Source: Sphaerisporangium corydalis (GTDB taxonomy: Bacteria > Actinomycetota > Actinomycetes > Streptosporangiales > Streptosporangiaceae). From it: a stretch of DNA of 64,000 bases. The position numbers were made by a program, and so were the translations under genes. This document shows positions 12,490-28,564 of this stretch, one piece after another. Each line of letters starts with the position of its first letter. The stretch's first letter is position 1. The stretch lies in assembly GCF_025506355.1 (NCBI RefSeq), contig NZ_JANZYP010000024.1:1-64000 (forward strand), in the 5' to 3' direction. The notes beneath the pieces were generated by a model that saw only the letters and a program-made list of their open reading frames with translations, did not search any database and was not told where the DNA came from.

Positions 12490-13776
<1,287 letters not shown>

Positions 13777-16013: not shown

Positions 16014-16808
16014 ATGAGCTTCGTTCCCCCAGGCAGCGGATGGCCGGACGACCCCGCCGGCCCGGACACCCCGGTGGCGGCCACCCCCGAGCAGGTGCGC
16101 GAGCTGGCCGGGTCCAGCGACGGCCTCGGCGAGCTCACCGCGCGGCAGTCGGTGTGCCGGGCGTGCCCCCGCCTGGTGGAGTGGCGCGAGGAGGTCGCCG
16201 ACGTCAAGCGGCGCGCCTACGCGGGCGAGACGTACTGGGGCCGGCCCATCGCCGGCTGGGGCGACGAGAAGCCGCGCGTCCTGCTCGTCGGGCTGGCCCC
16301 GGCGGCGCACGGCGGCAACCGCACCGGCCGGGTGTTCACCGGGGACCGCAGCGGCGACTGGCTGTTCGCCTCGCTGCACCGCACCGGGCTGGCCGCCCTG
16401 CCGACCAGCACCCACGCGGGCGACGGGCAGCGGCTGATCGGCGCCCGCGTGGTCGCCGCGGTCCGCTGCGCGCCGCCCGCCAACAAGCCGGCCGTCGAGG
16501 AGCGCGCCGCGTGCTTCCCCTGGCTGGTCAGGGAGCTGGAGCTGGTCGCCGAGCCGGTCCGCGTCATCGTCGCCCTGGGCGGGTACGCCTGGCAGGCGGT
16601 CTGGCCGGCGCTGCGGGAGGCTGGCTACACCCTGCCGCGGGCCAGGCCGGCGTTCGGCCACGGCGCCGAAGCGGAGATCGCGTACGGCGCGGAGCCGGTC
16701 CGCCTGCTGGGCTGCTACCACCCGAGCCAGCAGAACACCTTCACCGGCCGGGTCACCGCGGACATGCTCGAAGCGATCTTCAGGCGTGCCGTCGAGCTGG
16801 CCGGATGA
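16014..16808 (+). CDS. Family 5 uracil-DNA glycosylase (UdgB-like)
   Basis: The 264-residue protein fits the iron-sulfur uracil-DNA glycosylase group. Four cysteines at 48, 51, 152 and 167 have the spacing expected for a 4Fe-4S cluster. Motif A is GLAPAAHG at 93-100, followed by [11 protein letters not shown]. Family 5 enzymes have Ala here instead of the catalytic Asp/Asn of other families. The second motif is HPSQQN near residue 236. It removes uracil and deaminated bases, including hypoxanthine in studied family 5 enzymes. The start is ATG at 16014; the frame is open further upstream, but that part overlaps the repeat-rich spacer. It lies between ppx and ndh. Confidence 0.9.
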
Positions 16809-16925
16809 GCGCTCCCGGCGGGGAGTGAAGTACGTCACGTGCCGAAAAATTTCCGGTCTTCTGCCCGGAATCCAGGGAGTAAGTGTACGGATCCGGAAAG
16901 ATCTCCTGTTTTCCCCAATAAGTGA

Positions 16926-16955
16926 TTGGCGTCGGCGACCCATCTGGCGTAACCT
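16926..16955 (+). promoter_or_regulatory. Probable ndh promoter
   Basis: TTGGCG at 16926-16931 and TAACCT at 16950-16955 are separated by 18 bases, in a locally A/T-rich region. The -10 element overlaps the left edge of a Rex-type palindrome, as expected for a repressor-controlled promoter. Confidence 0.55.
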
Positions 16956-16973
16956 TGTGAATGGTTTCACAAG
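16954..16973. promoter_or_regulatory. Rex-type redox operator upstream of ndh
   Basis: CTTGTGAA at 16954-16961 and TTCACAAG at 16966-16973 form a perfect 8-bp inverted repeat around TGGT. This matches the known Rex site pattern TTGTGAA-N4-TTCACAA. Rex senses the NADH/NAD+ ratio and controls respiratory genes, ndh included, in Streptomyces. The site covers the transcription start region of ndh. Confidence 0.8.
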
Positions 16974-16998
16974 CGATACGCCACGAAGGGGCACCCAG

Positions 16999-18318
16999 GT
17001 GGACCACAAGGCCAAGCACATCCTCATCGTCGGCGGAGGGTACGTCGGTCTCTACACAGGACTCCGGCTCCAGCGCGCCCTGCGCCGCGAGCTCAAGTCC
17101 GGCAGCGTCCGGATCACGGTCATCGACCCGCAGTCCTACATGACCTACCAGCCCTTCCTTCCCGAGGCCGCGGCGGGCAACCTGTCCCCGCGTCATGTCG
17201 TCACGCCGCTGCGCCGGGTGCTGTCCAAGGTCCGCATCCGCAACGGCAAGGTCACCAAGGTCCACCACGCGAACAGGTCGGTGACGTTCGAGCCCAACGC
17301 GGGCCCGAGCGAGGAGATCGAGTACGACGTCATCGTCATGGCCGCCGGCTCCATCTCGCGCACCCTGCCCATCCCCGGGCTCGCGGACGCCGCCATCGGC
17401 TTCAAGTCCGTCGGCGAGGCCATCGCGCTGCGCAACCGCGTCCTCGCGCTCCTGGACCGGGCGGACTCGACCGACGACGAGGAGGTCCGCCGGCGGGCGC
17501 TCACCTTCGTCGTGGTCGGCGCCGGCTTCGCGGGCGTCGAGGCCCTGGCCGAGCTTGAGGACATGGCCCGGGACGCGGTGAAGTACTACGACAGGCTGAG
17601 CGAGAAGGACCTGCGCTGGGTGCTCGTGGAGGCCAGCGACCGCATCCTGCCCGAGGTCGGCCCCGAGATGGGCCGGTGGACCCTTGAGGAACTGCGCGAG
17701 CGGGGCATCGAGGTGAAGATGAAGACCCTGCTGAAGTCCTGCGAGGGCGGCCATGTGGTGCTCTCGGACGGCGACGCCTTCGAGTCGGCGACGATCGTGT
17801 GGACCGCCGGGGTCAAGCCCAGCCCGGTGGTGAACGCCGGGGACCTGCCCCTGGACGAGCGCGGCCGGATCATGACCACGACCAAGCTGACCGTCTCCGG
17901 CACCAACGGCGCCTTCGCGGCGGGCGACGTCGCGGGCGTGCCCGACGTGACCAACCCCGGTCAGTACTGCGCGCCGAACGCCCAGCACGCCGTGCGGCAG
18001 GCCAAGGTCCTCGCGGACAACATCGTCCGCCACCTCCAGGACCGCCCGCTGCGGGAGTACCGGCACAAGTACGCCGGGTCGGTCGCGGGCCTCGGCCTCC
18101 ACAAGGGCGTGGCCAACGTTTACGGGGTCAAGCTTCACGGATTGCCTGCGTGGTTCATGCACCGCACGTACCATCTGTCCCGGGTGCCGACCGTGAACCG
18201 TAAGGTCCGCGTGGTGGCCGACTGGACGCTCGCGCTCTTCTTCAAGCGGGAGACCGTCTCACTCGGTGAGATCGAGTCCCCCCGCGACGACTTCAGGGCC
18301 GCGGCAGCCACAGGCTGA
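16999..18318 (+). CDS. ndh: Type II NADH dehydrogenase
   Basis: The 439-residue flavoprotein has an N-terminal FAD-binding Rossmann motif (VGGGYVGLYTG at 11-21), a second NAD(P)H-binding Rossmann motif near 170 (VVGAGFAGVEALAEL), and the FAD-contact segment FAAGDVAGV near 308. The C terminus carries an amphipathic stretch (VVADWTLALFFKRE) of the kind that attaches NDH-2 to the inner membrane. It transfers electrons from NADH to menaquinone without pumping protons. The start is GTG at 16999 with GAAGGGG about eight bases upstream; a longer frame to 16786 includes the promoter and is rejected. The Rex-type operator in the promoter predicts induction at high NADH. A strong hairpin follows. Confidence 0.93.
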   Translation: MDHKAKHILIVGGGYVGLYTGLRLQRALRRELKSGSVRITVIDPQSYMTYQPFLPEAAAGNLSPRHVVTPLRRVLSKVRIRNGKVTKVHHANRSVTFEPNAGPSEEIEYDVIVMAAGSISRTLPIPGLADAAIGFKSVGEAIALRNRVLALLDRADSTDDEEVRRRALTFVVVGAGFAGVEALAELEDMARDAVKYYDRLSEKDLRWVLVEASDRILPEVGPEMGRWTLEELRERGIEVKMKTLLKSCEGGHVVLSDGDAFESATIVWTAGVKPSPVVNAGDLPLDERGRIMTTTKLTVSGTNGAFAAGDVAGVPDVTNPGQYCAPNAQHAVRQAKVLADNIVRHLQDRPLREYRHKYAGSVAGLGLHKGVANVYGVKLHGLPAWFMHRTYHLSRVPTVNRKVRVVADWTLALFFKRETVSLGEIESPRDDFRAAAATG

Positions 18319-18370: not shown

Positions 18371-18549
18371 CTCTGTAGGCATAACAGAGATGGCGTGGTG
18401 AAATTGGGCTACTTGAGCGGTCTGTTGTTCATTGCCCGAGTCACGGGGGCGCGTGACGTATACCGTTATCTTGCGCACTACGGAAGGAAGAGCAGAGACG
18501 TGGGCTCTGACCCGTTACGCAAGTGTGGTCCGTTACGTATGATTACGGC

Positions 18550-18622
18550 GCCCCCGTAGCCCAATGGCAGAGGCAAACCCCTTAAAAGGGTTCCAGTGTG
18601 GGTTCGAGTCCCACCGGGGGCA
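18550..18622 (+). tRNA. tRNA with UAA anticodon (Leu by anticodon), class I shape
   Basis: A complete 73-nt cloverleaf is present. The acceptor stem is GCCCCCG with CGGGGGC, and the discriminator is A. The D arm is GCC/GGC with loop GG. The anticodon stem is AACCC/GGGTT with loop CTTAAAA, so the anticodon is TAA at 18583-18585. The variable loop is five nucleotides, and the T arm is GTGGG-TTCGAGT-CCCAC. CCA is not encoded (CCC follows). A UAA anticodon reads UUA, a leucine codon. Bacterial tRNA-Leu normally has a long variable arm, so this short form is unusual, and its charging specificity is uncertain. It is the only tRNA gene I see in the window. Confidence 0.85.
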
Positions 18623-18729
18623 CCCGGCCGACTATATGAAACGACCCGCTGGCAGTAACGCACTCCCGCGCCTATATCCTTGTCGGTTTGCCGCCGGTCG
18701 CGTGCGTTTATCGCGAGGGTCCAAACCGG

Positions 18730-20650: not shown

Positions 20651-21198
20651 ATGGCCGGGGCGGCGGCGAATCGTCCCGCCGCGACCGGGACGGGCCGGGC
20701 CCGAATCGGGGCGGCCTTTGGGTCCCCGGGGTGGCGCGTCTTCCGCCCAATCGGATAGTCGCATTCCCGGGAGCGCGCTATCGGATATGACTCCCCGTAA
20801 TTACGCGAAAACGATGGCCCTCCCAAGAAAGGGATTACTTCTCAGTATCCTCGTAAAAACCTCCTCGGATGGGGTTATCGGGCGCGACCTAACGCCCGTG
20901 CGGCCGGTTCCCGTCCGCGGGCCCGGCCCGGAGGCCCGGCGGCCCGGCCGGGGGGGTCACGCGCGCGGTGCCGGCCGCGCGCGGAGTGATCGAAACGCGA
21001 CCTGGGGGCCGGAACTCGGGTGTGCGCTCGCTCGTTGTATCCGTTGCCGTTGGATGTCGGCCCGCCCGTCGTCCAGCGGTGGAAAAACGGCAGGGGCCCT
21101 CCTGACCGCCGTAACGGATGCGAAGCTATGTGCTACAGGCGGAACCTCCTGTGAGGCTCGACCGAACAGGCTGATCGCAGGTCGCAGTGGAGGCAGTG
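20651..21198. other. 548-bp intergenic region before the Bax1-like gene
   Basis: No convincing gene is present. The region has an A/T-richer core around 20790-20890. TCGGATA is repeated at 20751-20757 and 20781-20787, 30 bases apart. Near its right end, short stems such as ACAGG/CCTGT could form in the leader of the following gene. A frame of 163 codons at 20718-21209 has unlike codon use and no recognisable features. Confidence 0.5.
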
Positions 21199-21999
21199 AT
21201 GCAGAGTAAGAACCCGGTTCTGAGCAGGCTGGGCCAGCAGAACGACCGCCGGGGCTGGGCCGGCCCCACGGCGAGCCCCCAGACCTTGCAGGGCATGTAC
21301 AACGCCCCGTCGTACGCGGGCCCGCCGCCGCCCACCGCGACCCGGCCGATGACGATCGACGACGTCGTGGTCCGCGGGTTCATCACCCTCGGCACCCTGG
21401 TGGTGTCCGCCGCGCTCGCCTGGTACTTCAACGTGGGCTGGGCCCTCGCGGCCCCCGCGGTGATCGTCGGCCTGGTGCTCGGGCTGATCGTCTCGTTCCG
21501 CCAGAGCACCAACCCCGCGCTGATCCTCGGCTACTCCGTCGCGTACGGCATCGCCATCGGCGTGATCAGCAAGATGTACAACGACATGTACTCCGGCGTC
21601 GTCCTGCAGGCCGTGCTCGGCACCATGGTCGCGTTCGCCGGCGTCCTGTCGGTGTACGCGCTCAAGATCTTCCGGCCCACGCCGAAGTTCACCAAGTTCG
21701 TCGTCGCGGCCGGTTTCGCCGCCGTCGGGCTGATGCTCCTCAACTGGGTCGCCAGCATCTTCGTGGGCGGCGGCCTCGGCCTGCGCACCGACAGCCCGAT
21801 CGGCTGGATCTTCAGCGTCGCGATGATCCTGCTCGGCTGCTTCTTCCTGCTGCTGGACTTCGACGCGGTCGAGAAGGGCGTGCGGGCCGGCGTCCCCGAG
21901 AAGTACTCCTGGCTGATGGCCTTCGGCCTCACCGTGAGCCTCGTCTGGATTTACCTGGAGATCCTCCGCTTCATCAGCATCTTCTTTAACAACGACTAG
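21199..21999 (+). CDS. Bax1-I/YccA-family multi-pass membrane protein
   Basis: The 266-residue protein has about 55 soluble N-terminal residues, then seven hydrophobic helices from about residue 58 to the C terminus. Sequences such as FITLGTLVVSAALAWYF and ALILGYSVAYGIAIGVIS, and the conserved late acidic motif (LDFDAVEKG), match actinobacterial Bax inhibitor-1/YccA-like proteins. These are thought to act as pH-sensitive ion leak channels or to associate with membrane proteases; the role in actinomycetes is unknown. The start is ATG at 21199, five bases after GGAGG; earlier in-frame GTG codons at 21187 and 21196 overlap the ribosome binding site. A terminator hairpin follows. Confidence 0.88.
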   Translation: MQSKNPVLSRLGQQNDRRGWAGPTASPQTLQGMYNAPSYAGPPPPTATRPMTIDDVVVRGFITLGTLVVSAALAWYFNVGWALAAPAVIVGLVLGLIVSFRQSTNPALILGYSVAYGIAIGVISKMYNDMYSGVVLQAVLGTMVAFAGVLSVYALKIFRPTPKFTKFVVAAGFAAVGLMLLNWVASIFVGGGLGLRTDSPIGWIFSVAMILLGCFFLLLDFDAVEKGVRAGVPEKYSWLMAFGLTVSLVWIYLEILRFISIFFNND

Positions 22000-26903: not shown

Positions 26904-27184
26904 GTGGTGTCCTTCCTGATCCTCGTACCTTCGGCGGCGTTTCCCATCATGGTTCTGTGGCTGTATGTGGTGATTCGTAGATCTTTTTCGGCCTCGTCAT
27001 AGTCCTGAGCACTATGATCGCCGCCGTTCGGATTCGCCAAGGGCGCGACTCGCGGAAGCCCGTCCCCGGGAGTGGTAGTCGTGACGGTACGGTGTGGAAT
27101 TGAAACCCGCCGGAGACCAGATCATCCAGGGAAGACCGGCATCGGCAAGCTGATGAAGCTTCGGTAAATGAGGTGTTATTCCCG

Positions 27185-28564
<1,380 letters not shown>

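Follow-up and report, generated by a model that had tools for sequence, protein, structure and literature searches.

A class I tRNA-Leu(UAA) as the probable UUA reader in Sphaerisporangium corydalis, at the position of bldA-type tRNAs

Results

A short tRNA gene with a leucine anticodon downstream of ndh

The window, by which we mean the whole 64,000-nucleotide stretch analyzed, contains a single tRNA gene. ARAGORN called one tRNA, Leu with anticodon TAA, at 18550-18624 on the + strand, and in the Rfam scan of the window the only match was that of tRNA model RF00005 to 18550-18622 (59.7 bits, E 2.1e-10, gathering cut-off 29). The features of the locus are listed in Table 1. A preliminary description had reported a 73-nt class I tRNA with a TAA anticodon, a 5-base variable loop, A14, A73, and no encoded CCA, all of which was confirmed by ARAGORN, Rfam, and the sequence itself; A73 is followed by CC only. 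The cloverleaf had also been called perfect, but the D stem has three pairs and a C13.A22 mismatch, seen in the sequence and flagged in the Rfam alignment too. This arrangement agrees with that of class II leucine tRNAs. The acceptor domain is of the 7/5 type (7-bp acceptor, 5-bp T stem). Energy folding of the lone strand gave an MFE of -32.9 kcal/mol (z -2.5), which was equaled by 3 of 200 shuffles, and the D region of the energy model differs from that of the cloverleaf.

Table 1. Coordinates of the tRNA gene, its upstream block, and neighboring genes in the window
Feature	Position	Strand	Remarks
Enolase	12499..13776	+	Outer marker of conserved interval
ndh-like NAD(P)H dehydrogenase (Pyr_redox_2, NDH2_C)	16786..18318	+	Upstream neighbor in class I and class II lineages
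Conserved upstream block (46 bases)	18504..18549	+	Over 11 loci, a single substitution in one species and a 1-nt indel
-35-like hexamer TTACGC	18515..18520	+	Invariant in 11/11 same-genus loci; putative promoter element
-10-like hexamer TATGAT	18538..18543	+	17 bp after the -35-like hexamer and 6 bp before the tRNA; invariant in 11/11 except a 1-nt indel at its end; putative promoter element
tRNA-Leu(UAA), class I	18550..18622	+	ARAGORN, Rfam, sequence inspection: 7-bp acceptor stem, 3-bp leucine-type D stem, anticodon loop CTTAAAA, 5-nt variable loop CCAGT, A73
Bax-inhibitor-1-like gene (BaxI)	21187..21999	+	Downstream neighbor in class I and class II lineages
PLP-dependent enzyme with CBS domains	27173..28564	+	Outer marker of conserved interval

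The tRNA sequence is 100% identical in eight of the 10 other genomes of the genus and 99% identical in the remaining two. As the preliminary description proposed to check, its place after ndh is kept in relatives: ndh directly precedes the UAA tRNA at all 11 genus loci. The observation is, therefore, real and far from chance, being conserved across the genus together with a near-invariant upstream block.

The wider gene order is enolase, ppx, (UDG,) ndh, tRNA, BaxI, thiolase, GDSL lipase, and the PLP/CBS enzyme. The same order surrounds class II UAA tRNAs in families f20 (G057, G160, G228, and G331) and f25 (G248 and G383) and, in whole or in part, class I UAA tRNAs in f5, f23, f24, f28, and f29. 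In family f6 (G105), the search recovered just the upstream part of the neighborhood, and no gene of the conserved neighborhood was found in f26 (G254). Genus g46 of f20, which we take to be Streptomyces from the bldA sequence, has class II UAA matches only. Because this neighborhood is common to the class II UAA tRNAs of f20 and f25, the window tRNA and the class II tRNA-Leu(UAA) of the bldA type are positional orthologues. The preliminary description was right that the bldA-type tRNA is class II but missed this orthology. In one other genome, G230, an RlaP-like RNA-repair protein is encoded right behind the class I UAA tRNA (L310:5123-6082).

The leucine tRNA set of the genome

Textbooks state that bacterial tRNA-Leu requires a long variable arm. 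The assembly scanned here is a 162-contig draft of 9.48 Mb that is 99.4% complete, and its Rfam scan gave 59 tRNA matches. ARAGORN, run on all 51 loci, found UAA (the window tRNA), CAA, and UAG (L002 and L003) on class I tRNAs only, and CAG and GAG on class II tRNAs only. The three class I tRNAs share a CAGT-type variable loop and a common GTGGG T arm. Matches to the window tRNA number three per genome in all 11 genomes of the genus, our own included. ARAGORN confirmed UAA in the best match of each of the 11, and UAA, CAA, and UAG in our genome and G009. Thus, the window tRNA is unusual, as first described, but it is not a lone oddity, since the CAA and UAG tRNAs are also class I here and the form is widespread. 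The class I tRNA-Leu(UAG) of this genome (L003:1495-1568) has one G more in the D loop than the same-genus copy L101. A second, very different tRNA with a GCA (Cys) anticodon, L043 (G000:C13:155987-156058), lies beside the usual tRNA-Cys copies.

The short tRNA would be a dispensable extra if a class II tRNA-Leu(UAA) were encoded elsewhere, and a gap in a draft of 162 contigs could hold such a gene. The search for one, suggested at the outset, came back empty: no class II tRNA with a UAA, CAA, or UAG anticodon was found in the assembly by the Rfam scan, ARAGORN, or a class II covariance model, and the exact class II UAA pattern had no match in this genome. Apart from the window tRNA, the 99.4%-complete draft yielded no UAA tRNA. 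In addition, the 84 genomes matched by the class I UAA pattern include none that the class II UAA pattern also matches (see below). We consider a hidden class II copy to be the most improbable of the alternatives.

The window tRNA carries the UAA anticodon, A73, A14, A15-U48, G18G19, A20a, and the 3-bp D stem of bacterial tRNA-Leu; what it lacks is the long variable arm that marks bacterial tRNA-Leu and bldA as class II, having a 5-nt loop instead. A73, A14, A15, U48, A20a, and a 3-bp leucine-type D stem are combined in five of the 48 distinct tRNAs of the genome, namely the three class I (UAA, CAA, and UAG) and the two class II (CAG and GAG) leucine tRNAs, and in none of the other 43. For a leucine covariance model, we combined the two class II Leu tRNAs of this genome with 18 class II Leu(UAA) tRNAs from other genomes. 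Among the 150 of 7119 first-look candidates that were scored in our genome, GAG (90.8 bits) and CAG (84.4 bits) came first, the three class I tRNAs took ranks 3-5 (59.3, 56.7, and 46.8 bits), and the next best tRNA reached 43.7 bits, with all others lower. Hence the check with a leucine model, also proposed in the preliminary description, bore out the leucine assignment within the candidates scored: the class I tRNAs are the best matches after the class II ones.

Identity elements and leucyl-tRNA synthetase across genomes

Leucine-anticodon sequences were then compared across genomes (88 distinct class I and 31 class II, of which 85 and 29 could be parsed). A14, A15, A20a, U48, and three D pairs are present in 85/85 class I and 29/29 class II parsed sequences, the class I set having been fetched partly by patterns that fix some of them, A14 and A15 included, but neither U48 nor base 73. 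The parsed classes differ at two core positions: class I sequences have C13, plus A9 in 83/85, versus G13 and G9 in class II. The discriminator of the class I sequences is A in 82/88 and G in 6/88.

G73 occurs in the class I UAA tRNAs L104, L107, L112, L121, L122, and L127, mostly from Phycicoccus and near relatives. C33 takes the place of the near-universal U33 (loop CCTAAAA) in nine of the 97 copies of the class I UAA gene; these nine (L073, L075-L081, and L091) come from our own family or order. Because of these C33 and G73 substitutions, some relatives of the window tRNA may be weakened or different in identity.

One LeuRS exceeded the cut-off in our genome, and a single LeuRS was found in each of 27 other genomes checked (18 with class I and nine with class II UAA tRNAs). 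No second LeuRS dedicated to the short tRNAs was, thus, found in these genomes. In the part of the review available to us, leucine identity in E. coli is attributed to A73, A15-U48, G18G19, and A20a and not to the variable arm (PMC9976931). Since leucine identity bypasses the arm in that account, a short-armed tRNA is biochemically plausible as a LeuRS substrate.

Meaning of the UUA, UUG, and CUA codons

The codons read by the class I tRNAs were compared between 27 window genes and syntenic regions of four relatives (G009, G008, G007, and G022). Opposite TTG stood CTG, CTC, or CTT in 110 cases and a non-leucine codon in 14; for CTA, the counts were 19 and 8, respectively. UUG and CUA are read as leucine in this lineage. 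TTA was too rare to show its meaning in this comparison, with two to three aligned codons per relative.

UUA was, instead, followed in G378, a genome of family f73 with a lower GC content (57.6%), in which UAA was matched by the class I pattern but not by the class II pattern. Its leucine tRNAs in the 1.13 Mb analyzed are class II CAG, GAG, and CAA and class I UAA. In a comparison over 26 genes to E. coli proteins from five 49-kb stretches, TTA fell on leucine in 20/36 cases, or 19/36 with the codon masked before alignment. The other leucine codons gave 107/198 (CTG), 37/74 (CTT), and 131/284 (CTC), and the control codons 24/172 (ATC), 29/245 (GTC), 22/157 (ATG), and 11/120 (TTC). Because TTA falls on E. 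coli leucine at the same rate as CTG, UUA is leucine in G378, a class I lineage of another family.

These results bear on the idea that the UAA tRNA is charged with another amino acid, so that UUA would be reassigned or ambiguous. The class I body and the G73 of six of the 88 class I sequences could be taken in its favor, and the available part of one paper offers precedents in allo-tRNAs and the yeast mitochondrial tRNA-Thr(UAG) (PMC7609411). However, the full leucine set is present in the window tRNA and, within the genome, is confined to leucine tRNAs, TTA behaves like the other leucine codons in G378, and TTG and CTA are read as leucine in our own lineage. Charging with another residue is highly improbable, and codon reassignment was rejected on the TTG/CTA and G378 TTA alignments.

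A decaying or non-decoding tRNA-like gene (a pseudogene, attachment site, or regulatory RNA) also appears very unlikely. TTA accounts for 4 of the 11867 codons in 30 window ORFs, and such rarity would suit a gene that no longer decodes, as would C33 in some same-family relatives and the integrase genes that adjoin the UAA tRNA in two of 10 loci tested in the distant family f39. Against it stand the identical tRNA in 9/11 genomes of the genus (our own included), with its near-invariant upstream block, and the lack of any other UAA tRNA found in the genome, yet UUA codons are present in conserved genes. The preliminary description had left three options: an unusual leucine tRNA, a tRNA charged with another residue, or one used outside ordinary decoding. 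The D arm, identity bases, model rank, single LeuRS, and codons favor the first; the second found no support, and a role outside ordinary decoding sits poorly with a genome in which no other UAA tRNA was found.

Distribution in the phylum

Some match to the window tRNA was present in 54 of 60 genomes searched (our own included) and absent from six. A phylum scan of 396 genomes with exact class I and class II UAA patterns matched class I in 84 and class II in 168, while 144 matched neither. No genome of the 396 had both, compared to an expected overlap of 35.6 (hypergeometric P 2e-24, ignoring kinship). Class I UAA matches include Microbacterium, Pseudonocardia, Sciscionella, Phycicoccus, Janibacter, and Lolliginicoccus. 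Nonomuraea gerenzanensis, also of the Streptosporangiaceae, has a class I UAA tRNA that is 91.8% identical, lies in the same neighborhood, and equals that of G013 from our own family (L068). From their sequences, leucine tRNAs without a long arm would, thus, read UUA in many actinobacteria.

The class I CAA pattern matched 25/396 genomes, four of them in f20 (pattern matches only). Because it extends to these f20 genomes, the leucine isoacceptors seem to switch class separately. Two loci of short-armed leucine tRNAs, L081 and L333, were assigned to Phe by ARAGORN, and annotation software may misjudge class I leucine genes. Locus L124, a class I tRNA-Leu(UAA), lies on a contig of an Anaerolineae MAG; either the contig is mis-binned or the form exists outside Actinomycetota.

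Class switching at one locus

Both classes occur within family f39, where 13 genomes (eight class I and five class II) were compared. The same upstream genes precede the UAA tRNA in 13/13, although the G220 stretch is without one of the four. The f39 tRNAs of both classes have an identical acceptor stem and anticodon loop and almost the whole T arm in common. The classes differ at bases 9, 12, 13, and 23 and by a 10-nt variable-arm block, with further scattered differences in the D loop, anticodon stem, and variable loop. In a tree of the neighboring genes (1399 columns), five class changes are needed, of which the starred branches force four; the tree does not give their direction. Both classes are found inside genera g113, g158, and g164, and the sister pair G240 (class I) and G256 (class II) has support of 100/100. 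There were at least four class switches at this one locus.

Two other families also have both classes at one locus: f37 (G117 and G081 class I versus G150 class II) and f30 (G134 versus G060 and G245). The same-locus check found no shared gene for G067, G161, and G342 of f37 or for G075, G123, and G089 of f30, and no consistent colinearity between class I and class II loci was found in f68.

Class I leucine tRNA genes are also found on mobile elements. On Tsukamurella plasmid 5, some 12 bases separate a class I tRNA-Leu(CAA) (L360:1501-1577) from a site-specific integrase gene in antisense. Matches to the window tRNA were found in 67 phage records, 35 of them from Streptomyces phages. The one inspected, Streptomyces phage CeilingFan, encodes a class I tRNA-Leu(UAA) about 80% identical to the window tRNA (L358:2501-2575).

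The f39 class II arms are near-identical across five genera, and the same four bases change each time; we infer from this that switching took place by exchange of alleles rather than by repeated parallel mutation. Independent parallel mutation is doubtful but a possibility to be taken seriously. Bases 9, 12-23, and 13-22 of a tRNA lie in its core. Through their structural coupling to the arm, the four core bases could be selected repeatedly as one set. No donor tract was seen in the flanks of G240 and G256; because their upstream flanks stay similar as far as the tRNA, no long transferred tract is apparent, which would also fit mutation in place. At least four switches with the same four bases each, and class II arms that barely differ among five genera, are harder to reconcile with parallel mutation, and the phages and the integrase-linked plasmid gene show that class I leucine tRNAs travel.

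Discussion

Taking identity, codon, synteny, and switching evidence together, we regard the window tRNA as a leucine decoder that is ordinary in its task and unexpected in its body plan, and whose charging and expression we infer. With a probability of roughly nine in ten, it is a functional, UUA-reading leucine tRNA on the class I plan and orthologous by position to the class II tRNA-Leu(UAA) of the bldA type. The single bacterial LeuRS presumably charges it and would recognize A73, the elbow of D loop and T loop (G18 G19 A20a), and A15-U48, with no need for the variable arm. The dedicated promoter-like block just 5' of the gene probably drives its expression. Within the phylum, one locus can hold either class and, in the genomes scanned, never both, and a class switch alters core bases 9, 12, 13, and 23 and the variable arm together.

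The UUA switch via bldA controls development and antibiotics in Streptomyces. The window tRNA resembles bldA in its anticodon, leucine D-arm elements, rare codon, and standing as the sole UUA reader found, and in the enolase-ppx-ndh-tRNA-BaxI-thiolase neighborhood of f20 and f25. It differs in the absence of the long variable arm and in having A9, C12, C13, and G23, versus G9, G12, G13, and C23 in the bldA type. The part of one study available to us doubts a developmental role of bldA outside Streptomycineae (PMC4255298).

Other systems are less close. Animal mitochondrial tRNA-Leu(UUR) also lacks a long variable arm and, in the part of the review available, has its leucine identity through A73 and A14 (PMC9976931). 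That tRNA belongs to an organelle with its own LeuRS, whereas the bacteria described here are free-living and their one LeuRS must charge class II isoacceptors too. The same part of the review states that leucine tRNAs without a long arm are absent outside animal mitochondria (PMC9976931). A short variable loop was, however, described in a tRNA-Leu(TAG) from a tRNA-gene cluster of the Mycobacterium mucogenicum clade (PMC6582537, in the part available); it is a cluster copy with a normal long-armed isoacceptor elsewhere, in contrast to the window tRNA, which is the only copy found for its codon. Allo-tRNAs likewise have an unusual body and, in some cases, a leucine anticodon. As described in the accessible part of the source, they have an 8/4 or 9/3 acceptor domain and a longer variable arm, and those tested insert mainly serine or alanine (PMC7609411). 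The window tRNA is short and 7/5, and so does not have the 8/4 or 9/3 form of the 12-bp acceptor domain that marks allo-tRNA or tRNA-Sec-like molecules. The CeilingFan tRNA-Leu(taa) shares the class and anticodon of the window tRNA but is a phage-borne supplement in hosts that are expected to have a class II UAA tRNA of their own.

No printed account of widespread class I bacterial tRNA-Leu was found in a search of open-access full text. What stands out here is a class I tRNA-Leu as the sole reader found for a codon in free-living bacteria, at the bldA position. A free-living phylum with many short-armed leucine tRNAs, some of them the sole reader found, and one LeuRS apparently serving both classes is a natural experiment on what this enzyme requires in tRNA-Leu and on why the arm persists elsewhere. 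It likewise provides a test of whether the bldA arm matters for the UUA switch in Streptomyces.

A broader proposal, which we offer tentatively and consider rather unlikely in full, is that tRNA class is a switchable trait of one locus. Long and short tRNA-Leu(UAA) alleles would have been swapped many times across Actinomycetota, the bldA locus included, through phages and mobile elements that carry or target the gene, and the choice of arm would alter control of UUA decoding. With a tRNA of the CeilingFan type, phage UUA codons could be read independently of bldA. Lastly, a fecal scaffold labeled 'Bacteriophage sp.' (MT836143, L359) carries a class I tRNA-Leu(UAA); because it also holds a BaxI-like gene, the scaffold is probably bacterial chromosome.
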